Assembly: GCA_023205875.1 (NCBI GenBank)
Contig: CP060765.1
Location: 124,001 to 188,000 of the forward strand
DNA: 64,000 nucleotides
Direction of reading: 5' to 3'
Source: Chloropicon primus
Lineage: Eukaryota > Chlorophyta > Chloropicophyceae > Chloropicales > Chloropicaceae
Made by a program: the position numbers and the translations under genes. Within the stretch, counting starts at the first letter, position 1. Each line of letters starts with the position of its first letter. This document shows, one piece after another, positions 9,153 through 61,164 of the stretch. The notes under the pieces are model-generated. The model saw only the letters and a program-made list of their open reading frames with translations, did not search any database and was not told where the DNA came from.

Positions 9153-9177
9153 CTCGTCCGAGGGATCGATTTAAAGC
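9153..9177 (-). repeat. Leader core element upstream of RbfA
   Basis: On the minus strand this reads GCTTTAAATCGATCCC and then TCGGACGAGG, a degenerate match to the leader core, about 40 bp before the RbfA start and in the same orientation. Confidence 0.5.
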
Positions 9178-9358
9178 TCGCGAGATGTAGCTTCGATTGC
9201 AACACCGTCCTCGCCTCTCGCCCTCCTCGTCGTCGTCGAAACAAGCCCGCGTCGCGCGTCGCGTCGTCAAGCTCCCTCCTCCGTCGCCTTCAACAAACGA
9301 CAGATCGATCGCGATCGATAAGAGGAGGGAGGGACTTTGGCTGCGTTCGTGATCGATC

Positions 9359-9695
9359 GTAGGCGACGAGGGCGGAGGTTGAGGAAGCGGAAAGGTGTAC
9401 CGATCGATCTGTCATGCTCCGCTGCTTCGATCGATCCTTCGCTTGAGACGAGTGGACGCATATTGAAGGTTTTTTTAGGATCATTTTGGAAGCAGCAGAG
9501 GAGGGTGAGAGTGAGGTGAGCTCTTCGCGTTGCGTTGCGTTGCCTTGGACGGGGAGGGAGGGCAAGGGGAGGGGAGGGGCAAAAACGGAACCGTCTCGTC
9601 TTTCTCTTTCGTTCGAGCCGTCTCTTGAAGCGAACGGTGGACGGTGGACTGATCAGATCGTATCCATTGTTTTGATTGTTTTTGGGGGCCACCAG
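9359..9695 (+). repeat. Paired leader intron units of the gene at 9699
   Basis: Two cores lie 182 bp apart: 9424-9448 (GCTTCGATCGATCC then TTCGCTTGAGA) and 9606-9630 (CTTTCGTTCGAGCC then GTCTCTTGAAG). The second sits inside a convincing intron, donor GAG|GTGAGC at 9516 and acceptor CCACCAG at 9695, immediately before the ATG at 9699. The first unit may begin at GTAGGC (9359). Confidence 0.65.
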
Positions 9696-9698
9696 GGG

Positions 9699-11579
9699 AT
9701 GGGGTTGGGGATGGAGAGGCGGAGGGCATTGGTGTTCGTGATCGACGAGAGGCTCCCTGCGGATGTCAAGGAAGAGGCACGGGGTCGGATCGAGGAGCTC
9801 AAGCGGAGGGAGTCTCGGCATGTGATACGGTGTTGGCCCGGCGACCAAGGGAAGGTGGCCGAGGACCTCGTCGGACCGAGGCCTGCGAAGGGGAACGGCA
9901 GTCGGACCGAGGGGGAAGGTCTGGATTCTATCGCGGGCCTGGCGCAAGGCATTCGCCCGAGGGGGGGAGGCCCGGTGAAAGGAGCAGGAAAGGGGTCTGT
10001 GGTGAAGCTCGAGGGGTGTGGCGACTGCTCGCCGTCTCCGGCCGCGCGCTCTGTTGAAGTGGACGAGCTGGACTTGGTCTGGTTTGCGCACAAGGTGTCG
10101 TGCAAGGCGCCCATACCGGTCGAGGATCTCCACGCGTACACCCTGCTGAAGGAAACACGGAAGAAGTTCCCAAACTCGGTGAGACACGTTGTGACGACGC
10201 AGGAGCCCACAGAGGAGGGCCTCGCGCACTGGACGAGTCTTCTAGACTTGTCGAGGGTTCGCTTGGACTGCAGCGAGGCTTTGGACGGCCTGTTCTCGGG
10301 GCTTGCATCCGAGATCCTGTGGCGGGGAAACGGCGTGTTTAACGGGAAGGGAGGCCACCGGACAGAGGCAAAGATTGATCTGGTCAGGGTGGCAGAGCAA
10401 AGGGACGACGGGGACTCGGGCCGGAGCGAGGAAGAGGCGGGGGGGGATCAGGGGCGGTCTGCGGCGGTGAGCACCTCGATGTCTTTCGATCTTGAGGTGG
10501 TTCCCCTCGGCTGCGTTCCCTTTCACCGGTTGACGTCTATGCTTGGGCACGTGAAGGTGGTGGCAGGAGACGAGGGCATCCAAGGCTGGTTTGAAAGGAT
10601 CGGGAGTCTGCGGGCGGCCTCGGCCCCCAGCGCAAGCGCAAAGCAGGGCGGGCCTACGATGTGCATCCTTATCAATCAATCGAGCTGCGGGTCGCCGCTG
10701 GTGCTGATTCCCGCGGAGGAGAAGGGGCCTGGGGTCTTCTCGCTCATCGAGCTTGCGCCTAACCGGGGGAATCCCCTGTTGCCTCACTCCCAGCTGCTTT
10801 CGCAGAATGCGGAGGGAACCGCGCCCGTCGATACGAGCGAGGAGACCGCTCGGGAGCAGGATCTGGTTGTGGATTGCATCATCAGGAGGGAGGGGGAGAA
10901 GTCCTCTGAGTTGCACAGGAGGTGGCCAGAATTCTTCGCCCTGGCGAAGGAGGCGGGGGACAGGAGGCAGGTGGATGGGGCATCTGCGAGTGGGGGGGCT
11001 CGCCCTCCAGGCAAGAAGAAAGAGAAAATCTCTGGGAAGATGCTGCTCTTCAATTCTTACAAAGAGAAGGTTGCCGCCATCGAAAAGTATTTCAATGACG
11101 ATGGAAGCATAAAGGACTCGTCCATGCCTGTGCTTTGCCCGGGGGGCGCGAATGAAAGGAAACAACCCTCCGAGCCTGATTGCTCGGCAACGCTTTCGCC
11201 GAGATCGAAGCTGAGATCCGGGTGGGTGTACGAGAGGCGCAGGCAGTTGCAACTCGTGGCCGCCGGCACCAGCAGCAGCAGGAGGTACGATGGCCACGGG
11301 GTGAATTATTTCGTCGAAGCGAAACAGAAGGGCGAGGGTGGCGGAGTGAGCGAAAGGACGTCATCCAGACTGAAAAGAAGGAGAAAGGAGAAGGCTGTCA
11401 CGACAAACTCGAACCCAGTCTCGAAAAGGACCTTGAGGAAACCTCTCCTGGCGACGACCAGAAAGAGTGACCACGAGGCGGCGAAACCCAAGCCGGCGAA
11501 GAAGGCGTCGGAAACAGCAGCGAAAAGTCTGAAGAAAGTGAAAGTGCGGAGAACGTTGGACTATGCCGCGGCGTTGTGA
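9699..11579 (+). CDS. Unrecognised protein, 626 residues
   Basis: I do not recognise the family. Translation starts right after a leader-intron acceptor (MGLGMERRRALVFVIDERL). The N-terminal 200 residues look folded (DELDLVWFAHKVSCKAP, KFPNSVRHVVTTQEPT). The middle (about 250-400) has another compact region with SFDLEVVPLGCVPFHRL and CILINQSSCGSPLVLIP. A further short conserved-looking block is MLLFNSYKEKVAAIEKYF. The last 130 residues are basic and lysine/serine-rich, ending KVRRTLDYAAAL, and look disordered and possibly nuclear. No catalytic motif or membrane segment is visible. It reads as a nuclear or DNA-associated protein, but that is inference from composition only. Confidence 0.7.
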   Translation: MGLGMERRRALVFVIDERLPADVKEEARGRIEELKRRESRHVIRCWPGDQGKVAEDLVGPRPAKGNGSRTEGEGLDSIAGLAQGIRPRGGGPVKGAGKGSVVKLEGCGDCSPSPAARSVEVDELDLVWFAHKVSCKAPIPVEDLHAYTLLKETRKKFPNSVRHVVTTQEPTEEGLAHWTSLLDLSRVRLDCSEALDGLFSGLASEILWRGNGVFNGKGGHRTEAKIDLVRVAEQRDDGDSGRSEEEAGGDQGRSAAVSTSMSFDLEVVPLGCVPFHRLTSMLGHVKVVAGDEGIQGWFERIGSLRAASAPSASAKQGGPTMCILINQSSCGSPLVLIPAEEKGPGVFSLIELAPNRGNPLLPHSQLLSQNAEGTAPVDTSEETAREQDLVVDCIIRREGEKSSELHRRWPEFFALAKEAGDRRQVDGASASGGARPPGKKKEKISGKMLLFNSYKEKVAAIEKYFNDDGSIKDSSMPVLCPGGANERKQPSEPDCSATLSPRSKLRSGWVYERRRQLQLVAAGTSSSRRYDGHGVNYFVEAKQKGEGGGVSERTSSRLKRRRKEKAVTTNSNPVSKRTLRKPLLATTRKSDHEAAKPKPAKKASETAAKSLKKVKVRRTLDYAAAL

Positions 11580-11654
11580 GTTCCAAAAAACATTTTTAAC
11601 TGGCACCCATGTAGCACACACGCTCGTTGTTATTGCTTCTTCTTCTCGGTTTCC

Positions 11655-12962
11655 TCACTTCCTCCAGTTGTCAGAAGTCTCCCTGTCGTAGTCCTTTGGG
11701 TCTTCCCACCACGTGCAAGTCTGGTAACCCGTTCGAAGGAACTTCAAGGCAGGAGTTTCGTCTGACTTGAGACCCATCTCCTCCATCATCGTTTCCTTGG
11801 CCTCGAAAAGCGTGTAACGGTCCTCGCTGCTTCTGATGGGCCTGTACTTCCTCCCGCCAAGCTTTTCCTCCAAGAGCACCTGCCAGTCCCCAGGGTACTC
11901 CCTGTAAATGGCGCCGCTGTAATTGACCAAGTACGGAGACTCCGTGATGGTCTTCGAGTAGTCCCTCTGACGTATGAAGTAGACTGGCTTGAAGGACGAC
12001 AAGAATTCCCAGTGCATCTCTTTCGGGGGGAAGGCGATCAGCCCCAGGTCGCCCCTCAGCGTCTCAAGCTCGAGGTTCATCAAGATCACCGCAGGCTCGT
12101 TCTCTACGGGTCTCTCCCAGGTGGTCGACTTCGCTCTCGTGTCATAATAGTAGCTCCTGCCGCTCTTCTCGTCCTTGTACTCCTCCCAGCCCAGCGGAAT
12201 AGAGCCCCCTTGCTCCTCGAGCAGCGCTTCCCTCTTCTTGTTCACAAAGTCTCTGAGGTCCAGGAGCTCGGAGCAGCTCGCGTTGATGACGATGTACGTG
12301 TTCGCCTCGTCGTCCAACTCCTTGCTTTTCTGTCCTCCCTGGCCGTCCAAGAACGAGAACGCGCTCTTTACGCCCTCGATGGCGTCGGAGATGACGTCCC
12401 CCCTCCCCGTGAGGGAACCCAAGGAGATGTTCTCGTACATATCGAGCGCCTGGCCAAAAATTTTCTCCGCCCTCCGGACCTCGTTCTCGTCCGGCAGGAT
12501 GATCTTCACCTTCCTCTCGTACTCTTGCAGCACGCGGCCCAGCGCGATCGCGAACTGGACGTTGGCATCGATGTAGACGTCCGAGGAGTTCTTGTAAGCG
12601 TCCGACTCAAGGACGGGTGGGAACTCCACCTCCATCCTCGTCAAGTTATCCTTCAAGCCCAGCAGCACCGACTTGGCCATGTTGTTCACGATATCCGTGT
12701 AGTTGTCCAAAGCGATTGTCGTCGTGGACGGCATCGGCGAGCTCTCGTTCGTCTTCTGGGAACACCTCAAGGGCGCCACAACCTTCCTGGACCTTGCTGC
12801 CTCGCCACCACCGAGCACGAGGAACTTGGAGGAAACATCGTCTCTTGAGGCGGACCTCTCTCCCCTTCTCGTCGAAAGCGAGGAAAGCGCCCTTCGTGAA
12901 GGAGCTCTCGCCCTTCCAACGGAGCCGCAGCTGCACACCGACTGCCCCCTCGTCGACATCAT
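11655..12962 (-). CDS. DUF1995 protein with an inserted WW domain, probably plastid
   Basis: DUF1995 is found in plastid proteins of algae and plants, including the photosystem II assembly factor LPA3. The 435-residue ORF starts with about 75 basic, serine-rich residues, a likely transit peptide. DUF1995 begins near residue 85 (DNYTDIVNNMAKSVLLGLKD, EVEFPPVLESDAYKNSSDVY) and continues to TYIVINASCSELLDL. It is then interrupted by a WW domain (about 255-290: PLGWEEYKDEKSGRSYYYD, ending STTWERP). DUF1995 resumes with ILMNLELETLRGDLGL, FKPVYFIRQRDYSKT and YREYPGDWQVLL. The nested WW is unusual because WW domains normally bind proline-rich ligands in cytosol or nucleus. Two leader units lie upstream. 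Confidence 0.8.
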   Translation of the reverse strand: MMSTRGQSVCSCGSVGRARAPSRRALSSLSTRRGERSASRDDVSSKFLVLGGGEAARSRKVVAPLRCSQKTNESSPMPSTTTIALDNYTDIVNNMAKSVLLGLKDNLTRMEVEFPPVLESDAYKNSSDVYIDANVQFAIALGRVLQEYERKVKIILPDENEVRRAEKIFGQALDMYENISLGSLTGRGDVISDAIEGVKSAFSFLDGQGGQKSKELDDEANTYIVINASCSELLDLRDFVNKKREALLEEQGGSIPLGWEEYKDEKSGRSYYYDTRAKSTTWERPVENEPAVILMNLELETLRGDLGLIAFPPKEMHWEFLSSFKPVYFIRQRDYSKTITESPYLVNYSGAIYREYPGDWQVLLEEKLGGRKYRPIRSSEDRYTLFEAKETMMEEMGLKSDETPALKFLRTGYQTCTWWEDPKDYDRETSDNWRK

Positions 12963-13073
12963 CCCTTTCTCTCTCTCTTCGCACGACGATGAGCTTCACC
13001 TCGAGTCAGTCACTACTGGAAGATGCCGATGCGTTTTAGAACGTCTGGCAAATCCTCGTCACGACGTCGATCC

Positions 13074-13371
13074 TTTCGAGCGAGGTACCGACGGAAAGAT
13101 CACAGGACCACGCTTCTGCTTGTTTCCCTCGTCTTGGACGCCCTCGCCGTCCTCGACGCTCGTCGCGACGCGTGTCACTCACCTCTACCGAAAAAATTAA
13201 CACAATAACAGGGAGAAACTTTCAGTCAGTCCGTCGTCAAATCTTCCACAGAACGTCATTCCTTTCAAGCGAGGAGTCTTTCGAAAGCTCGAAGGACATG
13301 AATTCTGACTGCAACCATCTCGACCGTTCCGAGTGTCGTCCTCGTCCTCAAAACGTCGTCCGAAGACTCAC
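13074..13371 (-). repeat. Paired leader intron units of the DUF1995 gene
   Basis: Minus-strand cores at 13287-13263 (CTTTCGAAAGACTCC then TCGCTTGAAAGG) and 13098-13074 (CTTTCCGTCGGTACC then TCGCTCGAAAGG) are 189 bp apart. Each has a GTGAGT donor exactly 84 bp upstream (donors at 13371 and 13182). The second donor is preceded by TAGAG, so the upstream unit's acceptor and the next donor are almost fused. A further acceptor would be needed before the start at 12962 (for example CTTCCAG near 13015). Confidence 0.75.
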
Positions 13372-13573
13372 CTCTCCTCTCCACCAAGAAACGAAGATCT
13401 CTGTCCACGAATGGATAGAATTCTAACATTTCCGCGGCCCGGCGGAAAATTCCCCCCAAAAAAAATCGAAATAGGTTTCAAGGAATCGGAATCGGCACCG
13501 AGGGGAAGAGAGGGGAGGCAAAGCAAGCGCCTTGGGGGTCGATCAAGACCGATACTTGGACGAAGGGGTTCAC

Positions 13574-13781
13574 CGCTCGAAAGGTTGTCTCTTGGGCGTT
13601 CCAAAGATACCAACTTTGCTGAGGTTTCGTCACGAGAAGTGGTCTTTAGTTGACGCACAAGGTGGAGGACAAGGAAACAGAGCTGTGGAGGCAGAGAGGG
13701 GCAAAGGTTTCTTCTTGAGGGTCCATCGGGGCCAAGTTTTCCGCGAGAGTCTGCACACTTTGACAGCTTGTCTCTTGGGAG
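13574..13781 (+). repeat. Paired degenerate leader units upstream of BBS2
   Basis: Two related blocks 184 bp apart share GTTGTCTCTTGGG / CTTGTCTCTTGGG, then TTCCAAAGATACC or CTCCAAAGATACC, then AACTTTG or GACTTTG and GAGGTTTCGTC. They align loosely with the leader core (TCGAAAG...CTCTTG). ATACCAAC and ATACCGAC resemble branch points; the real BBS2 coding intron has the matching AAAGATACTGACTTT. A purine-rich segment starting CACAAGG repeats at the same period (13656 and 13842). Confidence 0.55.
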
Positions 13782-14028
13782 CTCCAAAGATACCGACTTT
13801 GTTGAGGTTTCGTCGTCGAGACTCCAGTGGTACCACTCACACACAAGGCGCGGAGGTGGAGGACAGGAGCAGGTGTGGTGGTGGTGGCAAGTTTCCTGCG
13901 CCAGCGAGGGATGGAGAGGCAGGTGGTGAGGGGAAAGGAGCAGTTGCAATCGTTCTAGGCGCGATCTTCAGAAGAATTTTTGTTCCCTCTTTCTCTCCTA
14001 CGGAGGAGGTAGCGTCCGTCTTCCCACT

Positions 14029-16222
14029 ATGTACAAGTCAGCCTTTAAGCTTTACCTCAGCGACCCCGTTCACGCGGGACAGGCCACGATAGGCTGCTTC
14101 AACGGGAGCTCCCTGTCCCTCACGTGCGTGACGAATGCAGGAAAAGTCTTCGTGCACACGCCTCAGGCGACCAACATCGATGGGGACAACCAAGTCAAGT
14201 ACCTGAACGTCAACAAGCAGATCAGCTGCATAGCGTCGGGCACGATAGATCCTATGCTGAGGAGGGACGTCCTGCTTATCGGAACGCCGAACAACCTCCT
14301 GGCATACGATGTGGAGGAGAACAGGGATCTCTTCTTCAGGGATGTGCCCGATGGAGTCACGAGCTGCCTCGTTGGAAAGCTCGGCAGCCTGAGCACCAAC
14401 TTGGCACTTATCGGAGGAAACTGCTCGGTCCAGGGCTTTGACGCCAAGGGAAGCGAGGCGTACTGGACGGTCACTGGTGACGTGGTGTCGGCCATGGCCT
14501 TTGCCAACTTCACAAACAACCCGGGCAAGGAGCTTTTGGTAGGATCCAAGGACAATGAAATCAGAATCTTTCAGAACGAGCAGGTGATAGAGGAGATCCT
14601 AGAGATAGACGAGATCACGGGCTTGTGCCCGGTGTACAGCTCCAAGGTAACTGGCCCAGAGTCCTTCCACTTGGATTGCACCAAAGATACTGACTTTTTC
14701 TTCGTCCCCGTCCTTGTTTTTGTGCTGCTCTTTCAAGTTCGGCTACGCTCTGTCGAACGGGACCATAGGAATATACAACAGCTCGAGGAGGGTGTGGAGG
14801 GTCAAGAGCCGGCACACGCCCAAGTGCATCAACAGTTTTGACCTGAATGGCGATGGGGTCCCGGAGCTCCTGAGCGGCTGGTCGAATGGCAAGTTCGAGG
14901 TGAGGTCCGAGAAGTCGGGAGAGACGCTGTTCAAGGAAAACTTCAGTGCCCCGATATCCTCGGTGCTCTGCGCGGACTTCAGGAGCAACGGGAGGGAGGA
15001 GGTCATTTGCATCACCGAGGATGGCGAGGTGAAGGGGTACTTGCAGGCCGACTCCACCATCGGGAAAACGATCGAGGACTCGAAGAAGAGCGCGGAGAGC
15101 TTGAGCCAGCTGCAGCACCTGAGGACGGAGCTGCAGCAGGAGATCAAGATGTACCAAAACGCAAACTTCCAGGCGGAGTTCTCCAATCCCGGTCAGGCCA
15201 AAGTGGACACGAAGATCTCCGTGTACATCGAAAAGATGCAGGGGGACTACTCGCTGAGGCTCGTGATCAAGTCCGCGAAGACCACGGCGATCAAGGCGGT
15301 CGTCGTGGAAGCGGATGGCATCTTTGCCAACGAAGTGACGTTCTACCCTTTCCCCGAAGAGAAGGACACTGCATTTTTCCCGGTGACTCTGATCAGCCGC
15401 ATGGCTTGCGTGATCTCCATGAAAGTTTTGCTAGGCTTCCCGCTCAGCAACTTTTACCATGCCGTGAACGCCGAAATTCATTTGGGCAAGTTCACGTCGT
15501 TCGTCCCCGCGCCTTCGGACCTCCGCAGCAACTTTCCTGCGTCTTACGTCAAGTTCAAGGTGAAGGACACGATACAAAGATTCGTCTCTTGGGTCGACGC
15601 GGCGTTCCAGACCAACCTCACGAGCACGACGAACTACAACAAGGACACCTTTGAGATGGGCTTCGTGTCCTCGATCAACAAGATGCCTTTGGTCCTCACT
15701 TTCAATGCAAACGAGTCGATCATCGTCATCTCCACCGATGACATGAGCCTGGCCGGCGAGGTCGTGCAGGACTTTGCTTCCTTCTTGGGAATATCGGAGC
15801 TGGAGTCAGTGAACGACTTTCCAAAGGAGATGGAAGAGTTCCAAGGCGTGCTGCAAGATGTTGAGAGCTACAACGCGGTAAGGTTGACGATATCGGCGGA
15901 TGTGGCGGACAGAACTGGGGCCATCAAGGAGCTTGTGATCAAGGGGGAGGAAGCGAGAATCCTTCAGAACATGAGCGCGGTGAGGGAGAATTATCGCCAA
16001 CTGTTTCACTTGAACAAGGACATGGTCGCCGAGCACGAGAAGAAAGCTCTTAACCACAAGGCCCTCGTGGACTCCCTGAAGAAGGTGAACAACATGATCC
16101 AAAAAGCATCAAACCTTCGCGTGGGCAAGGCCAAGTCCGCGCTAGTCACCTCCTGCAGGGCAGCCATCAAGGCGAACAACATGAGAACGCTCTTCAAGCT
16201 GATCAAGCAAGGGACTGCCTAA
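14029..16222 (+). CDS. BBS2: BBS2, BBSome subunit
   Basis: BBS2 is part of the BBSome, the octameric coat that carries membrane proteins in and out of cilia. Exons are 14029-14646 and 14738-16222 (about 700 residues, close to the family's usual 715). The N-terminal half is the beta-propeller (YLSDPVHAGQATIGCFNG, LLIGTPNNLLAYDVEENRD, FGYALSNGTIGIY across the splice). A coiled stretch follows near residue 320-350, then the GAE-like and platform domains, and a helical C-terminus (AEHEKKALNHKALVDSLKK). The 91-bp intron has GTAACT...TTCAAG and an ATACTGAC branch-point candidate. A fragment of the 3' coding end is copied at 60.8 kb. Presence implies ciliated cells or a retained BBSome. Confidence 0.93.
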
Positions 16223-16479
16223 AGAGGAGAGGCAGAGGCAGAGGAAAGGCAGTGCAGTAACGTGGCGGGTGGCGGGGGCAAACCAACAAGCCATATAGAT
16301 GTAACATAACCACAGAGCAGCGCAGAGGGCAGGCCAAAGGAAGGAGGGGAACCATCCAGTACTGGTAATGTAATGTAGAACAACAAAATTCTTGATTAAA
16401 AAAGAAAAAAGGTTTTAGGGAATTATAAGGATCATCCTCTGAAATGACGATGATCGTAGACAACTTGGTCAGAAAAGGC

Positions 16480-18326
<1,847 letters not shown>

Positions 18327-20987: not shown

Positions 20988-21079
20988 CGTCCACACCTCC
21001 ACCTCCTGCCCCGTGCCTCTCAATCCCAAACCTCCTCCACCGGTCTCGTCACACGAATCCTCACCAGTCGGTCAAAGAT

Positions 21080-21294
21080 TTCGACCGAGGACTCGACAGA
21101 AAGAAGACTACCTGACCTTTCCGCCTCCCAGTCGACCCCCTCGCCCCCTCGCGCCCTCCTCGCGCCCTCCTCGCCCTCCTCAAGCTCCCCTCTCCCTCTC
21201 AAACTCCCCTCTCCCTGGCGACTCCCTCCGACGTTTCCCGTCCTCAAATCCTCACCTGATCACCTCCACCCTCGAGCGAGGGCTCTATCGAAAG
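21080..21294 (-). repeat. Paired leader units of the lycopene cyclase gene
   Basis: Minus-strand cores at 21294-21271 (CTTTCGATAGAGCC then CTCGCTCGAG) and 21103-21080 (CTTTCTGTCGAGTCC then TCGGTCGA) lie 191 bp apart. A GTGAGG donor candidate lies at 21363, 69 bp before the first core. ATCAG|GTGAGG at 21256/21255 could join an acceptor to a donor. A GGGGCAG acceptor candidate is about 20 bp before the ATG. Confidence 0.65.
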
Positions 21295-21498
21295 CTGGCG
21301 AGATGATCCTTCTGAATCCTTCGCCTTCTTTCCGCTCCACGCGTCCCCTTTGTCCTTCCTCACCCTCCAAAAAACCCCCTCTCGCTCCTCGACCCTCCTC
21401 TCTAGGATTCTAGGATGATTCTGGATAAGGTTCTGGCTCCTTATTGGAGGATTGGATCTCGTTGGAGGACACACTTCTCGAGGAAGAACGCGACCAAG

Positions 21499-21885
21499 GT
21501 AGGACGAGGGACGGAGACAAGGCACGCGATGGGGTGATACATGAATGAACCACGTTTTTTCTCTTTCGAAAGACACCTCGTTCGAAAGATTTGAACCAGA
21601 AATGAGGTTTGTATTGACGATTTAGTCTCATCTTCTCACCTTTTGACTCCATGACGCAGGTAAGTATCGTCCAAGATAGGGGAGAGGGAAGCGGTGAGGG
21701 GAGGTGGAGGGGTGTTGTTTTAAATTATCATGCCACGTGCTTTCGAACGGCACCTCGCTTGAGCGATTGGGACCGCTGTCGAGGATGGCAGAAGACTGAG
21801 ATACCCATTTTTTCGTGTTTTTCTCGCGTGTTCTCCCACCATGGCTTGGTGCTTGGCTTGGTGCTGTGCTGCTGCTCGATGGCAG
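21499..21885 (+). repeat. Two abutting leader intron units of coproporphyrinogen oxidase
   Basis: Unit 1 runs from GTAGGA (21499) to CAG (21659) with a core at 21563 (CTTTCGAAAGACACC then TCGTTCGAAAG). Unit 2 begins at the next base with GTAAGT (21660) and ends at GATGGCAG (21885), with its core at 21740 (CTTTCGAACGGCACC then TCGCTTGAGCG), 80 bp after the donor. Cores are 177 bp apart. The junction CAG|GTAAGT leaves no exon between the two. Confidence 0.75.
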
Positions 21886-21892
21886 TGAGGCG

Positions 21893-25082: not shown

Positions 25083-25175
25083 GACAACGCAACGCTCTCC
25101 CCTCTCCGCTTCCACCTCTCGGCGATCCCCTTCGATGGTTTCCGCCTCCAGTCGATCACTCCGGTTGTCAAAATG

Positions 25176-25199
25176 GGCAACCGAGGGGTCGATGGAAAG
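25176..25199 (-). repeat. Leader core element upstream of SRP68
   Basis: On the minus strand it reads CTTTCCATCGACCCC and then TCGGTTGCC, about 95 bp before the SRP68 start and in its orientation. The nearest donor candidate is GTGAGG at 25259, 60 bp upstream of the core. A GATTG pentanucleotide run (about 25510-25540) lies beyond the next gene boundary. Confidence 0.6.
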
Positions 25200-25594
25200 C
25201 TCTCGAGATTCTCGAGACCGTGGCCGCGCTCCCTTGGGCTCTTCACTCCCTCGCCTCACGCAAGGCTCGACGAGTCGTCGCTCCTCCAACCCAAGCCGTC
25301 GAAACCCTGAAACCCTTGAAAATGAGCTCGCTCCAGAGCCTGAGATCCTGGAGAGGGAGGAGCCTCCGCCTCCTTTGGAGGAGGAGGGAGGGAGGGAGGG
25401 AGGAGATTGGATGGTGGGGGAGGGCACCCCACGGTCCCTTGCTCTTTCCACAAGTGCCCTCACTTGGAAGAGATCGAGGAGGAGGGGGAGGGGGAGGATA
25501 ACAACGATGGATTGGATTGGATTGGATTGGATTGGATTAGATAATAGCTTTGGATAATACTATGTTGAGATTATTGAAGCTTCGACGGATGTCC

Positions 25595-27897: not shown

Positions 27898-28075
27898 CTG
27901 TGCACGGATGAAGAAGATGAAGATGAAGCTGTTTCAGTCTCTCGCATCCTCATCACGAAAGCATTCTTTTCATGCGAGGGGTCGTTGGAAAGCTAAAAGA
28001 ACGTATCATGTGATCTACACCTCCAAAATATCTTCAACGATAATCTTTTGGTCACAAAAACGCCTCAGAACTTAC
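27898..28075 (-). repeat. Leader intron unit of the ABC-F gene
   Basis: Minus strand: donor GAG|GTAAGT at 28075, core at 27992-27968 (CTTTCCAACGACCCC then TCGCATGAAAAG) 83 bp later. The conserved tail follows (GAATGCTTTCGTGATGAGG and GAGACTGAAAC), and an acceptor TGCACAG ends at 27898, 33 bp after the branch-point-like CTGAAAC. A very complete example of the unit. Confidence 0.75.
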
Positions 28076-28354: not shown

Positions 28355-28746
28355 GTGAGTTTTTGGGAACGATTGCGGGGAGAGGACGAGGGAACGGGGA
28401 GAGGGGAGGGTTCTAGATCGAATATTCGTCTCGAGATCTTTCGATAGACCCGCTTCTTGGGAAGAATGGTGGAGTGAGGAGAATTTGGAAGACTGAAACG
28501 TTTCGATGTTTTGCTTGGTGTTTTTTGCGTGATGAAGCAGGTAAGTTCGGGACGAGTTGGACGGTGTAGAAGGACGTTTGGTCGAGTTCCCGCGCGACAC
28601 GAACGAGATCTTCGTCTCGTTTTCTTTCCGTGGAGCTCTCTCTTGCGAAGAATGACGTCGTGACGAGCATGTGGTGAGGCTTTGAGACTGATGGGTTTGC
28701 TTTTGATTCTGTTTTTTGCTCTGAATGGCATCATGGCCCATGACAG
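28355..28746 (+). repeat. Two abutting leader intron units of the MPS1 gene
   Basis: Unit 1 (28355-28540): donor GAG|GTGAGT, core at 28438 (CTTTCGATAGACCCG then CTTCTTGGGAAG), tail GAATGGTGGAGTGAGGAG and GACTGAAACG, acceptor GAAGCAG. Unit 2 (28541-28746): donor GTAAGT immediately adjoining, core at 28624 (CTTTCCGTGGAGCTC then TCTCTTGCGAAG), acceptor CATGACAG, then the ATG at 28759. Donor-to-core distance is 83 bp in both units and the cores are 186 bp apart. Confidence 0.8.
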
Positions 28747-28758
28747 ACGACGCTGAGG

Positions 28759-31700
28759 ATGATGGAGAAGGAGAATGTCATTCCGCAGGCGTTCACCGCA
28801 ACCAGCGCGTCGAGCGTCCTCCGTCAGGTGCACCTCATTGACGGAAAGAAGGAGCAGCAAGCGCTGGTGAAAGCGACGAGCAACGCGGCGACCGGTCAAG
28901 AGGGTCTGGCTTGTGGTGGCATAGGCACGCCGGTGAGCGCGAGCAGGGTGAATGGCAAGCCTAGCGTTTCGACGAGAACGCCCCTCGGTGCTCTAGCGGC
29001 GTCCTCCGCGCCGGTGAGGACGCCCCTTTCGAGCATAAGGCAGCCGAACCAGGGCAGAGACTTGGGATCGATCGCGACGCCGTCGAGCGGGTCGAGGGCG
29101 CTCCGGGAGCGTTTCCTGCAGCAGAAACCGAGCCAGACGCCTACGATGGCGCAGCAGGCGCTGACCGCGGCAGCGGCCGCCGCCACGGCGTCGAGGAGGA
29201 ACACGTGGAACGGGGACGTCGATATTTATGCGGAGACCGTGTTGAGCAAGGCGGCGAGGAGCAAGGAGGCCGCGGGGGTTCTGGTGGAGAGGGTCCGGAG
29301 GGTGAAGGGCGACTGCACCTGTGCACAGGCGTGGTGGGACCTCCTCTCGGCAGAGGAAGAGGCGCTCCTGGCGAGTGATGCCACGGGAAAGAGCGCCCAG
29401 GGCCTCTACAAGCTCTACGAGTGGGCGACAAAACTCGTGCCTCGAAAGGGCAATAAGAACAACGAGAGCTACATCAGCCTTTGGCTCGGGTACATCAAGA
29501 GGCAGAAGAACGAAGAGGACGTCAGGGACACTTTCAAGACATTGAGGAACATGGGAATAGGGGAGACGAGCCAGAACTTGTACCAGCAGTGGGCACTCTT
29601 CGAAGTCGCGGCCGGAAACAGCGAAAAGGCCAAGGGCATTGTGAAGAAGGGGGTCAAGGCGGGAGCTATCGAGAAGAGCGACCTGGAAAGCTTCGTGTCC
29701 AAGTTGTCCCTGCAGGAGCCCCGCCAGCCCGCACAGCCGGTGGCGGCTCCCGCCGAGAGGCGCGCCGGCAGCGCTTTGGCAACGAGCGGCGTCGCTCCTA
29801 GCCACCACCACGGTGTCAACGCAGACCCGTTGGATTCGAAGCTGTCGCTGCGTCACAAGCTGGGACACTTGAGCCAGGGCGAGAAGGTTGCGGTAGCACC
29901 CCTTCACCAGGGCAGCAAAAGAGAGGAGGACGATAGTCTGAGCAGGACAGACCCCAGCGTTCTCTCTTCCAAGACGTTCTGCAGCAGCATTTACAGCAAC
30001 AGCTCAACGCTGCACACGACAGGGACCCCCTTCAGGGGCGAGCACCCCACTTCGTCGACCTTGACAACGAAGGCTTTGCACACGTACACGCCCACTGAGG
30101 CCTCCAAAATTCACAGCACGAATGCCAAAGGACCTGGGAAAGACTCAAAGTACACGGAGGCGACAGCCACAACAGGTGACTCGGAGGACCAGGCCACTCC
30201 AGGAAGCATGAAAGGCCCAAAGCGGCTGGGCTTGAAGCGTTTTGCTGGCCCGGCCAGAAGGATCAAGCCAGGAGAGGAGGATCCAAAGCCGCAACAAAGC
30301 GCTGCACTGAATTCGCTGAACAGCGAAAGGAGACAGGCGGCCCCACCCGCGTCCTCCACGGTCACTGAGAATTACACCGACCTTTCTGGGAAGCTATCGC
30401 CCATCGTTGAGGCCTCGTACAGCACGAGCTCTGCAAGCAGAAATAGCACGAGGTCTACATCTTCAGGTCCGACGGAGGAGGTCTCGAGGAAGGACCAGGG
30501 AGTCGAGAGGCCGGCACAGGCAGAGAAAAGGGTCGTTTCTCATGCCTCTGCATCTTCCCAGCCAAAGGCAGAGAACATCTCCAGGAGACAACCTGCTGGG
30601 AACAATGCTTCTGTCGCTCCTCGCAAAGCGGAAGCGAAGCCGGCAGCAAGTACCCAGCAAGTGAGAGAATCCAGCAACTCTGTAACGGTCCAGAACGTGA
30701 AGTACACCGTCCTGGAGTGCGTTGGCAAGGGAGGTAGCAGTAAAGTCTACAAGGTCATCTCGCCAGATCACAAGATCTTTGCCCTGAAGAGGATCAAGCT
30801 GGATGGTCGCGAGAAGGAGGCCGCTGCAGGCTTCATGGACGAGATCACTCTCCTGAATAGGTTCAAGGGACGCCACCAAATCGTTCAGCTTGTGGACAGC
30901 CAAATCTTTAGGGACTCGGGAATCATATACATGGTGCTCGAGTATGGCGAGGTTGACCTCGCAAGGCTGCTCCAGAGGAGAGAAAAGGTCAGATCAGCGG
31001 AGGGTCAGAATAAAATCGACCTTAACTTCATTCGCCTTCATTGGCAGCAGATGCTTGAGGCCGTCCACATCATTCACGAGGAGAGAATCGTGCACAGCGA
31101 CCTGAAGCCGGCGAACTTCTTGTTCGTGGAGGGAGCCCTGAAACTGATCGATTTTGGCATTGCAAAGGCGATACAGAATGATACCACTCACATCGCGAGG
31201 GAGAGCCAGGTTGGAACGTTGAACTACATGTCACCGGAAGCCATTCTCTCGGGCAGCAACGGAAACCGCTCCGGGAAGCAGACCAAGGTTGGAAGGGCAT
31301 CTGATGTTTGGTCCTTGGGCTGCATCTTGTACCAGATGGTTTACGGCCGCACGCCGTTTAGCCACCTTCAGTTCATTCAGAAGCTGCACGCGATCACGGA
31401 CCCCAACCACCAAATCGAGTTCCCATCGATCCAAAACCAGAGCTTGCTGGACGTCATGAAGAGGTGCCTCGACAGGAACCCAAAGACCAGAATTGGGATT
31501 CCGGAGCTGCTCGACCACTTGTTTTTGAACCCATCGCAAGAAACTGTGGCACCCCCAAACTTGTTGACGCCAGAGTTCTTAAATTCGATGTTGATGCAGC
31601 TGTCAAACGGGGGGCAGAGCTCTGCGGACATCTCGAAGCTGTCTCAAGAGCTCTGCAAGCAGCTTGCAGCGGGGACGGTGCCCGATTTGAAGAGCCTCAT

Positions 31701-32250
31701 TCCGAGCGCCCAAGCTCAGCCCCCCCAGGGTGGGCCACCAAAGGCTCCGCCACCGCCACCGCCGCCCCCAACGTCGTCTGCCCTTGTACCTCAGAACAAG
31801 ATGAAGATGATCATGGAGGACATCAAGAAGAAGAAGCAATTGAGACCGCAGTCGCAGAATCCCCAGGGTGGTGAAAAGCCCAGCCAGGGGAGCAGCCTGC
31901 AGCATGGCAGCGGTATCGCTGAAGCTGCAGCGGCGAGGGCCTTGGCCAGGGCAAAGCAGCGCCAAGAAGCAGTCATGGCCTTGGAAAAGAAGGAGGCCTT
32001 CATCAGCAACGACCTTCAGGACGCTTTGCAGAAGCAACATGCCGCTCTTAAGCCAGTTGGGACTGAGAAGCAGAATGGCAACCATGACCACGAAGAGGAG
32101 AGTGCTCCAGAGAGTCTTTCGGGCGTGTTTAGACACGAGTTGAACAAGAAATTCCAAAAGGCCGTGAACAACAACAATGACACGATCACAATGACAGGCG
32201 ACCTCACTGGGTCTGTCACCGAGGATACCATGGACATGTCCTGGAACTAA
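28759..32250 (+). CDS. MPS1/TTK-type spindle checkpoint kinase
   Basis: Dual-specificity kinase of the spindle assembly checkpoint, acting at kinetochores. The 1163-residue protein has a TPR-like helical region (about 174-300: AWWDLLSAEEEAL, LYKLYEWATKLVPRKGN, YISLWLGYIKRQKN), as in TTK and BUB1. A long serine/threonine/proline-rich linker (about 310-640) follows, then the kinase domain (about 645-930): VGKGGSSKVYKV, FALKRIKLDG (catalytic lysine), VHSDLKPANFL (HSD in place of HRD, normal for MPS1), LIDFGIAKAI and GTLNYMSPEA. The C-terminal 230 residues include a proline run (PPPPPPPPT) and a helical glutamine/alanine-rich segment. No introns in the coding region. Confidence 0.92.
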   Translation: MMEKENVIPQAFTATSASSVLRQVHLIDGKKEQQALVKATSNAATGQEGLACGGIGTPVSASRVNGKPSVSTRTPLGALAASSAPVRTPLSSIRQPNQGRDLGSIATPSSGSRALRERFLQQKPSQTPTMAQQALTAAAAAATASRRNTWNGDVDIYAETVLSKAARSKEAAGVLVERVRRVKGDCTCAQAWWDLLSAEEEALLASDATGKSAQGLYKLYEWATKLVPRKGNKNNESYISLWLGYIKRQKNEEDVRDTFKTLRNMGIGETSQNLYQQWALFEVAAGNSEKAKGIVKKGVKAGAIEKSDLESFVSKLSLQEPRQPAQPVAAPAERRAGSALATSGVAPSHHHGVNADPLDSKLSLRHKLGHLSQGEKVAVAPLHQGSKREEDDSLSRTDPSVLSSKTFCSSIYSNSSTLHTTGTPFRGEHPTSSTLTTKALHTYTPTEASKIHSTNAKGPGKDSKYTEATATTGDSEDQATPGSMKGPKRLGLKRFAGPARRIKPGEEDPKPQQSAALNSLNSERRQAAPPASSTVTENYTDLSGKLSPIVEASYSTSSASRNSTRSTSSGPTEEVSRKDQGVERPAQAEKRVVSHASASSQPKAENISRRQPAGNNASVAPRKAEAKPAASTQQVRESSNSVTVQNVKYTVLECVGKGGSSKVYKVISPDHKIFALKRIKLDGREKEAAAGFMDEITLLNRFKGRHQIVQLVDSQIFRDSGIIYMVLEYGEVDLARLLQRREKVRSAEGQNKIDLNFIRLHWQQMLEAVHIIHEERIVHSDLKPANFLFVEGALKLIDFGIAKAIQNDTTHIARESQVGTLNYMSPEAILSGSNGNRSGKQTKVGRASDVWSLGCILYQMVYGRTPFSHLQFIQKLHAITDPNHQIEFPSIQNQSLLDVMKRCLDRNPKTRIGIPELLDHLFLNPSQETVAPPNLLTPEFLNSMLMQLSNGGQSSADISKLSQELCKQLAAGTVPDLKSLIPSAQAQPPQGGPPKAPPPPPPPPTSSALVPQNKMKMIMEDIKKKKQLRPQSQNPQGGEKPSQGSSLQHGSGIAEAAAARALARAKQRQEAVMALEKKEAFISNDLQDALQKQHAALKPVGTEKQNGNHDHEEESAPESLSGVFRHELNKKFQKAVNNNNDTITMTGDLTGSVTEDTMDMSWN

Positions 32251-36124: not shown

Positions 36125-36374
36125 CTGCACACAAACTAAAGTTTCAAGGCTGCCGAGCAAAGCCAAAGAGAGTTGCTAGATGGATGAAAGCATACGACGC
36201 GTATGAGTCATACAAAAACAAAAATTGTGTTCAGGGTCCAATCCTTCCACAAAGCTTCAATCTTTTCGTCCAAGGAAGGGATATTTGGAAAGAGGAAGAG
36301 ATTGATCACCGAAATCTGTCCTCCTCACGCACTTGTGCCTTCGTTCTCGTCGTCTAATGCTCGTCCGAACCTAC
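36125..36374 (-). repeat. Leader intron unit of the coiled-coil membrane protein gene
   Basis: Minus strand: donor AAAG|GTAGGT at 36374, core at 36292-36268 (CTTTCCAAATATCCC then TTCCTTGGACG) 82 bp later, tail AAGATTGAAGCTTTGTGGAAG. Acceptor TGTGTGCAG ends at 36125, 24 bp before the ATG at 36101. The unit is 250 bp long. Confidence 0.7.
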
Positions 36375-36483: not shown

Positions 36484-37025
36484 CTCGATCCAAATTCAGA
36501 ATCCATTCAGAGTCTCAAGTGTGTGGGTCCAAGAGGGAGCAAAGGCGCGACCTTTGGGCGGAGTCAGAGCAAGGTAGACCGCGGCAGAAGCAAAGTAGGG
36601 CGACACATTGAGGTAGAGGAACTCGCGAGCTTTCCGCACATACCTCACTTGCAGCATTTGGCCTCAGGGTGAGAGAGTACGGCGTCAGGAGGTGGCTGTG
36701 GCAAGAGGCAGCAGAGAGGGTTGGGAAGGTGCAGAGCAGTTAGGCAAGGCACACAGTGTGCGTGTGTTCGTCCGAGCGTCTGTTTGACGTCATCGAACAC
36801 GATTTCACATCCTGGGACAAGGCTGTACCGAGGCAGACACCCCAGACGCTTGGCTTGGCCAGTATGAAACAGGACACCTGAAGGATTGGGACAAAGCAGG
36901 CGTCTTTGGAAAGTAGACAAGGATCGCGAGCAGTCACGTACAACTGGTTCGAGCTGAGAACCTCGTGCGTTCCGTCTGAGGCTTTGACGGCAACAAGGGG
37001 GAGAGAGGAAGCGCGGACCACAATA

Positions 37026-44079: not shown

Positions 44080-44668
44080 CCTCAAAATGGACCCTTCCTC
44101 TTCGAAAGCTTCGCGAAACGCGACGCCGCTTTGCAGAGAGACGGAAGGCGACCCTCTCGATGCGATGGCCCTCCCTCCTTCCCTCAAACACTTCACGCCG
44201 CTCCCTCAAAGCCACGTCACTTCCACCTCTGGCCAGCCTCCTCCTCTGGCCACAATGGAAGAAAGAGTCGTCACGCGTCACTCCGACGCGCAAACGCTTC
44301 AAGTGAAGGGTCCACCGAAAGGTCGTAACATACGCTTTCGATCCGCGCTCCTCCCTCTCCCTCTCTCCCCCGCCCGTCGACCGCGTCGACCTCCAAAGTC
44401 GTTAGAGAGGCGCACCTCTCGATCCCCTCCCCCTCCAAAAAAAAATTCTGTCCAAGCTGCTGCTGACGATTCACTAGCTGAGCGCCAAGCTTCTGTTGCC
44501 AGTGATACATTAGCCAAGCTGGTGGATGGAGGAGATGAAGGAGATTGGATGGCTTGGCTTTCCCTCTCTCGTTGTCCTCTTTCATGGCCTGACGCTGCCT
44601 CAGCTTATTGGTGTTGCTTCATAGTAATCGGACGAGTATTATTGATATAATAATAGTTTTGGTTTGGA
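44080..44668. other. Spacer between TBCE and the phosphatase gene, with one leader core
   Basis: A minus-oriented leader core lies at 44321-44297 (CTTTCGGTGGACCC then TTCACTTGAAGCG), upstream of TBCE and in its orientation. No strong donor is visible at the usual 83 bp. The rest is pyrimidine-rich sequence with no recognisable gene. Confidence 0.55.
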
Positions 44669-47516: not shown

Positions 47517-47870
47517 GTGAGTTCGGAACGACATAAGGGACGACGTAGGGGAGATAGGGTGGTGTAGGAAGGTGCCAAACGATTCCTTGTCTCTTGATCT
47601 TTCGTTTGACTGCTCTCTTGTGAAGAATGGCGCCGTGATGAGGATTTGAGAGACTGAAACGTTTGGCTCTCTCTTGCTTTTTGTCAAGGTGCGGAGGTGG
47701 TGAGTACGGGACTTGTGGAGGACGAGAAGGGGAGCGGGAGGCGAGGAGGAGGCCACCCAGAAAACCTTCGTCTCTTCTTCTTTCGAAAGAGCCCTCGCTC
47801 GAAGAACTCGGTGCCCTGCTTGAGCTAACGAGACTCGTTCTCTGCCTGTCTGTGTGTCTCGGTGCTGCAG
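47517..47870 (+). repeat. Two leader intron units of the LPCAT gene separated by a micro-exon
   Basis: Unit 1 (47517-47688): donor GTGAGTTCGG, core at 47599 (CTTTCGTTTGACTGC then TCTCTTGTGAAG), tail GAATGGCGCCGTGATGAGG and GAGACTGAAACG, acceptor TTGTCAAG. Unit 2 (47700-47870): donor GTGAGTACGG, core at 47780 (CTTTCGAAAGAGCC then CTCGCTCGAAG), acceptor GGTGCTGCAG. The 11-base stretch between them would be a micro-exon. Donor-to-core is 82 and 80 bp; cores are 181 bp apart. Confidence 0.78.
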
Positions 47871-50000: not shown

Positions 50001-50189
50001 GTGAGTGAGTGTGTCGAAAGGAGAGGGGTTCTCGGGCGGACAGAGGCGTGGTTCGGAAGAATCGTCGCAACAGGCGGAAGCTTCTCCTCTTCCTCTTTCG
50101 TTTGACCCCACCCTCTCCGAAAATGGTGAAGCACCGAGTTGAATGGATTGCCAAAAACCAAAGCCCTTCGTTTGTTTGTTTGTTGCAGG
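50001..50189 (+). repeat. Leader intron unit upstream of EF-P
   Basis: Donor CCAG|GTGAGT at 50001, core at 50095-50121 (CTTTCGTTTGACCCC then ACCCTCTCCGAA, 94 bp after the donor), acceptor TTTGTTGCAG ending at 50189. A later acceptor CGTTGCAG (50251) just before the ATG at 50261 is also possible. The preceding spacer (49721-50000) has a GACAGAGGA array at about 49784-49817 and no gene. Confidence 0.65.
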
Positions 50190-50742: not shown

Positions 50743-50776
<34 letters not shown>

Positions 50777-52624: not shown

Positions 52625-52687
52625 CCAGGGAGAAGGGACGCCACACAACAATTTTGTCAACAAAAAGTATGAGAGTAAGTATCTATC

Positions 52688-53002: not shown

Positions 53003-53066
53003 AACGCCTCGGTTTTACTTTTTCCAAAAGCGCAGCAGGAGGAGAGAAAGGGAGAGGGAGAGCGTG

Positions 53067-55239: not shown

Positions 55240-55323
55240 GGGGAAGGAAGGCTTTGGGGTTGAGAAAAAAAAAAAAAAAAGCAAAAGAGAAAGTGTATTG
55301 TTATACAGGTGGGCGTTATATGT

Positions 55324-56157: not shown

Positions 56158-56248
56158 CCCTCCAAGCCAACCACGAGGCAGGCAGCACTCAAACGCCTAG
56201 GGGACCAAACCTCTTCCCCGAGTCCTCTCCTCACCAGGAGGCCTCTTC

Positions 56249-56462
56249 GTTCAAGCGACCACGCGTTCGAAAGAGGAGACAAAGAGGATTCCGAAAGTCT
56301 CCCTCTCTTCCTCCCTCCCGTCCCAACGCGCCCTCTCGTCGCCCTCGCCGGCTCTCTTCCTCCTCACACTCTCCTCCTCCCTCCTGGCGAGAAACTTTCT
56401 CTTCCGCGTCCTCCAATCCTCACCACGGCGCCGTTTCGTTCAAGCGACGGCTCTTTCGAAAG
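56249..56462 (-). repeat. Paired leader units of the 277-residue coiled-coil gene
   Basis: Minus-strand cores at 56462-56438 (CTTTCGAAAGAGCCG then TCGCTTGAACG) and 56273-56249 (CTTTCGAACGCGTGG then TCGCTTGAACG) are 189 bp apart. Both have a tail: GGCGCCGTGGTGAGGATTGG and GGCCTCCTGGTGAGGAG. A GTGAGG donor candidate is 94 bp upstream of the second core. The rest of the 56158-56952 spacer shows no gene. Confidence 0.7.
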
Positions 56463-56952
56463 AGCAAGACACGACGCTTCCGCCTGTTGTCCAACCCCTC
56501 GTCCCAACGCCCGTCGCCGCCCGTCGTCTGCCGCCAAGTCAAGGGGTCTCTCCTTTCTCTCGCCAAACGGAGCAAAATTCTGATCCTCTTTCCCTCCAGC
56601 CAAATTTGAATCCTGAGAAAAAATTGTGATCAACATTAACGCGCGAGCACGAGCGCCTGACGTCCATCCAAGCTTAGCATGCATGCCATGGGGCTGGCTT
56701 CACGGATCGGCAATCCGCGACGTGTTGTCTCCCTCCCGGCTTGAGCTTTTCATCACGAAACTCAAAAACTTTATTACCAAAAAAAAGGAAGGAAAGCAAA
56801 GCCTTGGAAAGACAAGACCCACCTCGAGAGAGTCCAGTCGCTCTATTCGTTTTTTCTTTTTCTTTTATATCAATAAAACCCAAGCAAGCAGCACACGAAA
56901 GAGAGAGGCTTTCGACGACACGCTTTCGGGTGGTGTGCCCAGGTCTCACAGG

Positions 56953-59778: not shown

Positions 59779-60790
59779 CCTCCTCCTCTTAAGCGCTTCA
59801 ACCTTCCTCCCCGTCTGACTCGGCTGCCTCTGTTGGCACTACTCACACTGTTGCCACTCCCCTCTATCGGACTTGGGCTGCCTCGGTCGACCTCTGTCCC
59901 AAGCCTTCAAGCGTCTCTCCGTCACTCAATACCATCAAGGACAACTGACCTAGTCTGCACGACCCTTGCCTCCTCTCCACCATGTCCACAACCCTCAACC
60001 CTCCCGGCTCAAGGCACAAAACGCTTCAGACTTGCACCAAACCTTCTCCTGCTGGTGAAGGTCCAGAACGTCTCTCCGTCTCGCCAGGGAAGTCGGAGCG
60101 CACCCGTTGTTGCTCCGGGAAGGGAATCAAGTCCTCGTGAAGAGCAAGCCCACTGGGAGGTCACCACGTTTCCCCCCTGTCTCGTCCTCCTCTCGTCCTC
60201 AACTCCAGTCGTCCACACAACACCTGAGTAATGAGAAGTCCTTCTCGCCGACTATCAAGACAGGCCTGTCTCTCTCTCTCCCCTCCTCAGAGAACATTCC
60301 ACGAGTGAAGTCACACCCCAGAAACGCAACGGAGTAGTCCCGCCTTGGTGGGACCCTGGATGGGACCACGCTGTGTGACGTCTTGGATGGAACAGTGAGG
60401 AATATGAATCTTATTCTTATGGAATTACGAAATCCATGGGAACCTTCCTGCCATATTTTGTCCTTGAAAGGGAAGGATAGGATAGGATAGGATAGGAGAG
60501 GAGAGGAGAGCAACTTGTTCTGTTCTGTTTGTGGGAAAGTAACGTGATAGGGGAGAGCCAGAAAGATCCTCCTCCTCCTCCTCCTCCTCCTCCTCCTGTT
60601 GCTCCTTCTGCTCCTGCTCGTGATTCATGCGGAGAGGAGAGGAGAGAGAGAGAGATAGAGAGAGGAAGAATCGATGCCTTCCCTTGATCAACAGGAGGGA
60701 AGGGATCCACCACCACCACCATCACCACCATCGTCATCATCATCGTCACCATGGCCTGTACTCCTCCCTCCAGGACAACAACGCAGCCAA

Positions 60791-60915
60791 GGCCAACTGG
60801 TTTCACTTGAACAAGGAGGAGCGATCATGGTCGCCTGAACACGAGAAGAAAAGCCCTCGTGGACAACATGAAGAAGGTGAACAACATGATCCCAAAAGCA
60901 TCAAACCTTCGTGTC
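60791..60915 (+). pseudogene. Fragment copy of the BBS2 3' coding end
   Basis: The stretch matches BBS2 coding sequence at about 15995-16120: GGTTTCACTTGAACAAGG, ATGGTCGCC, ACACGAGAAGAAA, GCCCTCGTGGAC, GAAGAAGGTGAACAACATGA and AGCATCAAACCTTCG occur in the same order. Small insertions and deletions break the frame, and there is a local doubling of CATCAAACCTTCGTGTCATG (60900-60939). It has no start, intron or domain of its own, so it is a non-functional duplicate fragment of a host gene about 45 kb away. Confidence 0.9.
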
Positions 60916-61140
60916 ATGCATCAAACCTTCGTGTCATGCAGGACACGACACATCCTCCTCCTCCTCTCGAAGGCGAAAACTTCAAGAAGAATGAATGAAA
61001 AATATCCGTAGAGATAGAAAAAAGTGACACTGACGTGGCAGTCGGGGGCGGGGTTTCGACAGGGTTTAACTGCGACGGGGAGACGACCGGGGCAAGAGTT
61101 GTCGGAGTTGGGGACGGAGTACGAAGTGTCTGGTCGCGCT

Positions 61141-61164
61141 CTTTCGATTGAGCCGTCCCTCGAA
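61141..61164 (+). repeat. Leader core element upstream of the DnaJ-type zinc-finger gene
   Basis: Reads CTTTCGATTGAGCCG then TCCCTCGAAG, 135 bp before the ATG at 61299 and in its orientation. A single copy; no strong donor at the usual distance. Confidence 0.6.

Follow-up and report, generated by a model that had tools for sequence, protein, structure and literature searches.

A sense-oriented sequence element in gene leaders of Chloropicon primus, with an intron-like subset

We analyzed a 64-kb stretch of the nuclear genome of the alga Chloropicon primus (contig CP060765.1, positions 124,001–188,000; hereafter the window), in which an element with a CTTTCG core recurs upstream of unrelated genes, among them those for RbfA, lycopene cyclase, SRP68 and a BUB1-like kinase. 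A preliminary description of the window had counted 25 matches to a shared core, placed most of them upstream of a gene start in that gene's orientation, and proposed that they sit inside introns. A profile search found 28 elements in the window and none in its reversed sequence; by codon-usage calls, 24 of these precede the nearest coding segment and share its orientation. The family is genome-wide and sense-oriented, stands in the leaders of unrelated genes and includes a real intron-like subset. The observation is real and under-described, and only a minority of copies bears out the intron-family reading. We found no description of the element in the literature searched, and the words 'promoter' and 'UTR' (untranslated region) occur zero times in the main text, so far as available, of two Chloropicon genome papers (one of them PMC12301720). 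Throughout, elements in the window were found by profile, genes were named by Pfam, splice signals were identified by sequence, and all introns are predicted.

A genome-wide element family

The core CTTTCGAWNGA occurred 11 times in the window, compared with 0.56 expected from shuffles (some palindromic sites are listed on both strands). Across the assembly of 17,584,162 bases in 20 contigs, which served for all genome-wide searches, it matched 702 times on each strand, compared with 44 and 47 matches to the reversed pattern (some palindromic sites are again counted twice), and a longer strict pattern matched 64 times against zero in the control. We assembled a 264-kb set, the window plus one 200-kb stretch of chromosome 1, as the basis for counts of gaps, orientation and promoters. 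In this set an iterated profile returned 55 rows at E<0.01, one of them the palindromic double of core 21563, and a larger final profile with a cut-off of at least 9 bits returned the 28 window elements and another 30 from the chromosome 1 stretch. Reversed sequence, used as the control, gave no hit with either profile. All eight cores singled out in the preliminary description (9606, 13287, 21294, 21563, 28438, 47780, 56462 and 61141) are among the 28.

In a column table of 115 elements, with CTTTCG set at 0, information spans about -25 to +50. The parts of the element are GAA at -18 to -16, CGTCTC at -11 to -6, CTTTCGAWNGA, CCTCGCTYGAA, TTTGRCG at about +27 to +33 and GTGAGGAT at about +39 to +46. 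Read by eye from the same table, the consensus is about GAA.CGTCTC....TCTTTCGAWNGANCCCTCGCTYGAA...TTTGRCG...GTGAGGAT, roughly 70 bp long and strand-specific. A purine-rich stretch lies at about -110 to -30 relative to the core, and the core is CpG-rich, with an observed/expected ratio of 1.45–1.60 at -20 to +40.

Forty loci and eight further loci had been chosen by CTTTCGAWNGA, so their core columns are biased. A masked test, free of this selection bias, hid core columns 0–10; its 63 training loci came from outside the 264 kb in which it then searched. The hidden columns nevertheless emerged in the 44 hits that span the mask, with frequencies of.91 for C0,.89 for T1,.95 for T2,.95 for T3 and.93 for C4; in columns 7 and 8 the commonest base reached only.55 and.39. 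Two of the 44 hits (12850 and C1 129869) look spurious and are still counted. This uneven conservation between columns, present also under masking, fits selection on a functional sequence better than an even decay of copies. Median identity between random pairs was 0.63 in the element, 0.62 in the upstream flank and 0.55 in the downstream flank.

Element density differs between regions, from 28 per 64 kb in the window to 30 per 200 kb on chromosome 1, with parts of C1 and C2 poorer still, so that a genome total of roughly 2,000–4,000 elements is only an extrapolation. The left half of C1 (C1:1-937475) is core-poor: its 937 kb contain 7 CTTTCGAWNGA rows, and the other 918 kb contain 65 (some palindromes are counted twice). 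Within this arm lies the single genome match to the PF00145 cytosine-5 methylase, untyped (C1:613202-614275). With only that one match to set beside the CpG-rich core, the idea that linkers carry CpG methylation was set aside. The strict pattern has no match anywhere on C2 (1.77 Mb) or in the first 1.47 Mb of C1, a span that nonetheless includes a stretch with known elements. The core-poor region of C1 and C2 is possibly an outlier region like those of Mamiellophyceae. Elsewhere, near-identical leaders with one common copy of the element (L006, L050, L053 and L063, at 690 kb, 1.33, 1.36 and 1.54 Mb of C1, L006 differing at a few places) suggest a recently multiplied gene family.

Position, orientation and spacing

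Gene segments were called by codon usage and cover 74% of the DNA; the first Chloropicon genome paper, in the part available, gives 73.8% coding. None of the 55 profile rows fell within predicted coding sequence and 52 pointed to the next coding segment on their own strand, 46 of the 55 being in sense and at most 400 bp from a coding segment, compared with 9.5% for random positions. A core equally frequent inside genes and on both strands would have refuted the preliminary description, and these counts do not refute it. Of the 40 divergent gaps 29 contained an element, as did 9 of the 41 long same-strand gaps (two of the nine only in antisense); convergent gaps (0/40) and short same-strand gaps (0/19) had none. 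Counted by promoter side, a sense element was present on 36 of 80 divergent sides versus 7 of 41 tandem sides (p=0.0026), with one copy on 32 sides, two on 11 and three on none. The element is confined to the leader region, and GC skew changes sign about 120–150 bp upstream of the core, which also reflects the symmetry of divergent promoters.

The genes downstream are unrelated. We scanned 20 window proteins, 17 of them downstream of an element, and 12 of these 17 had a Pfam match, to unrelated families. Pfam agreed with most of the earlier gene names (Radical SAM, RbfA, DUF1995, lycopene cyclase, coproporphyrinogen oxidase, SRP68, ABC ATPase, CAP-Gly/LRR, acyltransferase and EF-P domain); the gene called MPS1 is instead BUB1-like, with Mad3_BUB1_I and kinase domains. 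Elements also stand upstream of the Radical-SAM gene at 119-1165 (core 1250, 1200..1272, minus strand; 28 bits, no splice signals), the RbfA gene (core 9176, 9126..9198, minus), SRP68 (core 25199, 25149..25221, minus) and the CAP-Gly/LRR gene (core 44321, 44271..44343, minus). Core 61141 (61119..61191, plus) has no splice signals. Cores 36292 (36242..36314, minus) and 36630 (36608..36680, plus) are divergent, 338 bp apart, and a weak element of 9.6 bits (core 13597, 13575..13647, plus) faces the BBS2 gene, divergent to core 13287.

Four window elements depart from the rule. Core 2870 (2820..2892, minus) does not face a called gene start; core 25444 (25422..25494, plus), weak at 12 bits, is antisense in a same-strand gap; core 62342 (62292..62364, minus) is antisense to the gene at 62467; and core 63996 (63946..64000, minus), at the window edge, faces the 3' end of the last called gene. 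The segment 62467-63876 encodes a protein with a Beta-lactamase2-family domain, here in an algal nuclear genome.

Where two copies share a strand, their spacing is nearly constant. There are 22 same-strand neighbours less than 700 bp apart, of which 21 lie at 171–191 bp and one at 230; in the window and the 200 kb alone, where fragment length sets no limit on distance, 10 of 11 lie at 171–191 bp. Pairs of CTTTCG counted across the genome gave 524 rows at 168–198 bp, versus 176 at 111–141 bp, 213 at 231–261 bp and 206 at 348–378 bp. In the window, cores 9424 (9402..9474, plus) and 9606 (9584..9656, plus) are 182 bp apart, the first lying 248 bp from the divergent core 9176. Upstream of lycopene cyclase, cores 21294 (21244..21316, minus) and 21103 (21053..21125, minus) stand 191 bp apart without splice signals; 269 bp from the former and divergent to it begins the pair upstream of coproporphyrinogen oxidase, cores 21563 (21541..21613, plus) and 21740 (21718..21790, plus), at 177 bp. 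The best score in the window, 58.8 bits, belongs to core 56462 (56412..56484, minus), paired at 189 bp with core 56273 (56223..56295, minus), again without splice signals in either copy. Opposite-facing neighbours stand 245–446 bp apart (eight pairs under 1 kb across the 264 kb, with the weak exception 25444 a member of one).

Members of a tandem pair resemble each other more than random elements do, with identities of 0.71 versus 0.63 in the element, 0.65 versus 0.62 in the upstream flank and 0.62 versus 0.55 in the downstream flank. Two pairs, at 0.87 and 0.91 in the element, look recent. As this excess in likeness is modest, most of the spacing is not accounted for by recent duplication. 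The spacing is the same in tandem pairs whose copies lack splice signals, and in 12 of the 16 pairs with both members classed, both are of one type, with splice signals or with none.

Predicted leader introns

Splice-signal and GAAAC analyses used 120 of 131 elements, those dropped being too near an end or near-identical to another. After leaving out 20 loci picked by the branch-point-like sequence GACTGAAAC, 100 elements remained, of which 15 had both a donor and a branch point, 6 a donor only, 5 a branch point only and 74 neither. The two signals co-occur in a subset: a branch point was present in 15 of 21 elements with a donor versus 5 of 79 without (odds ratio 37, p=2e-9). Both also stand at preferred distances: GTRAGT/GTAAG donors cluster between -85 and -80, and the branch-point-like sites cluster at +54. 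The pattern CTTTCGN{40,65}GACTGAAAC matched 33 times genome-wide versus 3 in the control, bearing out the branch-point-like sequence of the preliminary description, and 22 of the 33 matches span exactly 62 nt; GTGAGTN{68,95}CTTTCG matched 276 times versus 43. The sequence after the branch point contains 44% T, versus 21% in the other elements, and predicted introns measure 165–206 nt in the 19 of 28 for which a YAG was found.

The preliminary description had placed the core inside a GT...AG unit wherever the surroundings could be read. Such a unit is not general. In the window a GTRAGT/GTAAG donor lies 62–97 nt upstream in 9 of 28 elements, 8 of which also have a branch-point-like site, and of the eight cores singled out there just three (13287, 28438 and 47780) combine the two signals. 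Nor is a reading of the whole family as introns supported, given the 74 of 100 elements with neither signal, copies far from near-identical and constraint that is uneven.

Some predicted introns lie back to back. Upstream of the DUF1995 gene, core 13287 (13237..13309, minus) is followed at 189 bp by core 13098 (13048..13120, minus); the first predicted intron (13185..13371, minus; GTGAGT...TAG, with the donor at -84, branch point at +57 and YAG at +103) and the second (13016..13182, minus) are separated by 2 nt, at 13184-13183. Upstream of the BUB1-like gene (28759-32250), cores 28438 (28416..28488, plus) and 28624 (28602..28674, plus) stand 186 bp apart. The first predicted intron (28355..28540, plus; 186 nt) ends in CAG directly before the GTAAGT of the second (28541..28746, plus), so that the exon between them, at 28540/28541, would have zero length. 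In L047 the predicted exon is 10 nt, and in L038 a second donor follows 12 nt on, its second element lying beyond the fragment. The pair upstream of the acyltransferase gene is also intron-like: core 47599 (47577..47649, plus) has a donor at 47517 and no YAG in the range searched, and core 47780 (47758..47830, plus), 181 bp on, lies in a predicted intron at 47700-47870. Core 27992 (27942..28014, minus; donor 28075), upstream of the ABC ATPase gene, is intron-like as well. Core 50095 (50073..50145, plus), upstream of the EF-P-domain gene, has a donor at 50005 and no branch point at +44 to +75, and for core 21740 a donor GTAAGT at 21660 directly follows CAG.

Copies without splice signals retain a trace of the same layout. 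Their GAAAC words number 7 at +50 to +59 and 11 at +20 to +29, inside the element, with 0–2 in other bins, and the enrichment at +50 to +59 makes both types look homologous through the branch-point region. The idea that GTGAG at +36 to +45 acts as a decoy donor and is avoided in introns was dropped (p=0.25, not significant). The BBS2 gene has an apparent coding intron at window positions 14647-14737 (GTAACT...CAAG, read by eye), which gives no profile hit at the cut-off, unlike the leader introns.

A possible role in DNA and chromatin

We favor reading the family as an oriented, promoter-proximal leader element of C. primus that would act on DNA or chromatin and to which, in some genes, leader introns are locked; we give this a probability of about 0.5. 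Its orientation, its confinement to leaders, its preference for divergent promoters and a near-nucleosome spacing kept with and without splice signals together point to a role in DNA or chromatin just inside the transcribed start. The element would most likely work at the DNA level, holding chromatin or polymerase in place a short way past the start site, and two copies in one gene would stand about one nucleosome repeat apart; the 171–191 bp seen in 21 of 22 neighbours resemble such a repeat. If cores lie near the center of the first nucleosome, divergent cores would, by geometry, leave room for a nucleosome-free gap, a position at the nucleosome border being also possible. In a minority of genes a leader intron would be built around the element, its donor preceding the core by about 83 nt and its branch point following the core by about 54 nt. 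Two such introns could then adjoin, separated by an exon of at most about a dozen nucleotides and as few as zero.

More speculatively, and in our view doubtful as a whole, the element may serve as an oriented chromatin 'ruler' in DNA, marking nucleosomes one and two, or the borders of these, past thousands of starts, mostly at divergent promoters. Leader introns one nucleosome repeat long would be built on it and multiply by tandem duplication of the whole unit, and the resulting back-to-back introns would be separated by exons of zero to about a dozen bases.

Several points weigh against the favored reading. No element was detectable on 78 of 121 promoter sides, and both sides of a divergent promoter carried one in 7 of 40 cases versus 8.1 expected, so that the two sides are independent and lend no support to a shared bidirectional function. 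Gene starts rest on codon-usage calls, strict sense orientation is equally expected of an RNA-level signal, and splice sites at fixed distances are not required by a purely DNA-level role. Part of the tandem spacing may have been inherited from tandem duplication. The genome-wide count of CTTTCG pairs takes in non-element words and palindromic pairs on both strands, and its reversed control is itself raised, at 278 for 168–198 bp versus 200, 200 and 176 at the other ranges, probably because GCTTTC belongs to the same element. Finally, AT-dinucleotide periodicity, computed without a shuffle control, is ambiguous: at -73 to 73 the power is 0.092 at 10.2 bp, with a median of 0.033 and a top of 0.168 at 21.5 bp, and at -95 to -25 the top lies at 10.25 bp.

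The strongest rival, which we consider possible if rather unlikely, is an old introner-like family: one repeat intron would have spread through leaders and most copies lost their splice sites, leaving the conserved middle motif. The lengths of the predicted introns, the nearly fixed places of their signals, the GAAAC that copies lacking splice signals keep where the branch point would be, which makes both types look homologous beyond the core, and the agreement in type within tandem pairs all speak for it. So does Micromonas, according to the available parts of the papers cited here, where 6,112 IE-A introner elements stand against 463 unspliced remnants, most of which consist of a 50-nt motif alone and lie in introns or near UTRs, some of them close to coding sequence (PMC3879977); in Micromonas CCMP1545 introns average 180 nt, and the IE-C class reportedly has a branch point of the GACTGA type (PMC3879977, PMC4815162). 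IE-A and motif C form a close precedent: Micromonas too is a picoplanktonic green alga with repeat introns, and its motif of approximately 50 nt persists also where splice sites are missing, near UTRs and never in coding sequence (PMC3879977, PMC4815162). However, compared by description rather than by sequence, Micromonas copies are conserved over their length and in great majority spliced, whereas Chloropicon copies are about 63% identical, mostly lack splice signals and are not near-identical over a whole intron, and so do not form a near-copy introner family. Neutral decay would also wear columns equally, yet the core columns were kept in the masked test, and functionless remnants would not be expected to stay in sense and evenly spaced. 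Introners across eukaryotes are families of related introns with a reported link to nucleosome linkers; they are transposable-element-like insertions in genes, unlike the Chloropicon element (PMC9860276, whose main text, so far as available, has the words UTR and Chloropicon zero times). Insertion at many gene places, including coding sequence, is likewise not what we found: the absence of profile rows from called coding sequence, which we count as a difference from Micromonas introners, extends to short same-strand gaps.

An RNA-level leader element, such as a hairpin, a splicing enhancer or a signal for translation or stability that is read in the transcript, nascent or mature, would account for the strict sense orientation and for the fixed distances to splice sites; we judge it unlikely. 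Pairing between CTTTCGA and TYGAAAG is possible (mean 78% of cells), and columns 20 and 24 vary in a G-U-compatible way; GTCTC and GAGAC are also complementary within the element. Four of five arm-pairing tests, of own versus shuffled arms, lean its way (z -1.1 to -1.8), but the fifth gave +0.5 and none passes z = -2. Moreover, coupled columns lie off the stem diagonals, so that covarying stems of the kind expected of a structured leader RNA were not seen, and the first 60 of 111 elements folded with z of about 0. On these grounds we rejected an RNA hairpin, and likewise a known structured RNA, the window having no Rfam match at gathering thresholds. An ordinary transcription-factor site of widely expressed genes, downstream of starts by chance, is far less probable again. 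It would suit the unrelated downstream genes and the palindromic CTTTCGAAAG core, and plants have position-dependent downstream sites: in vascular plants the GATC motif YVGATCBR acts within 500 bp downstream of the start and tunes thousands of genes (PMC11525189). But that motif is short, whereas the Chloropicon element is long, asymmetric and in one orientation, and about 70 bp of oriented constraint, a spacing of about 182 bp and fixed splice-site distances exceed a usual site. Another plant motif, TTNGATYTG, belongs to intron-mediated enhancement; it lies in early transcribed sequence, in introns or exons, and acts without splicing in Arabidopsis (PMC6760150). Such plant downstream elements would be the functional parallel to the favored reading, and the occurrence of the Chloropicon element both with and without splice signals would fit action independent of splicing. 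TTNGATYTG differs in being 9 bp and tested in many copies (PMC6760150), against about 70 bp occurring once or twice at fixed spacing, with a putative function. GATC stands at the matching place, -3, in only 23 of 131 elements, which agrees with neither plant motif. Chance or low-complexity similarity in GA/CT-rich leaders, which the purine-rich flanks might suggest, is refuted by the empty reversed controls at the cut-offs used and by the strict pattern, found 64 times against zero in the genome control, with 3 exact matches in a 257-billion-base prokaryote set and none in IMG/VR viral contigs.

If the element does act on DNA or chromatin in this way, it would be a genome-wide cis element linking promoter architecture, nucleosome-length spacing and the birth of leader introns in a compact, simple alga. 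One could then test whether chromatin signals come first and leader introns arise on them or whether such signals are what introns leave behind, and whether the downstream promoter elements of land plants have a deep counterpart in the green lineage.

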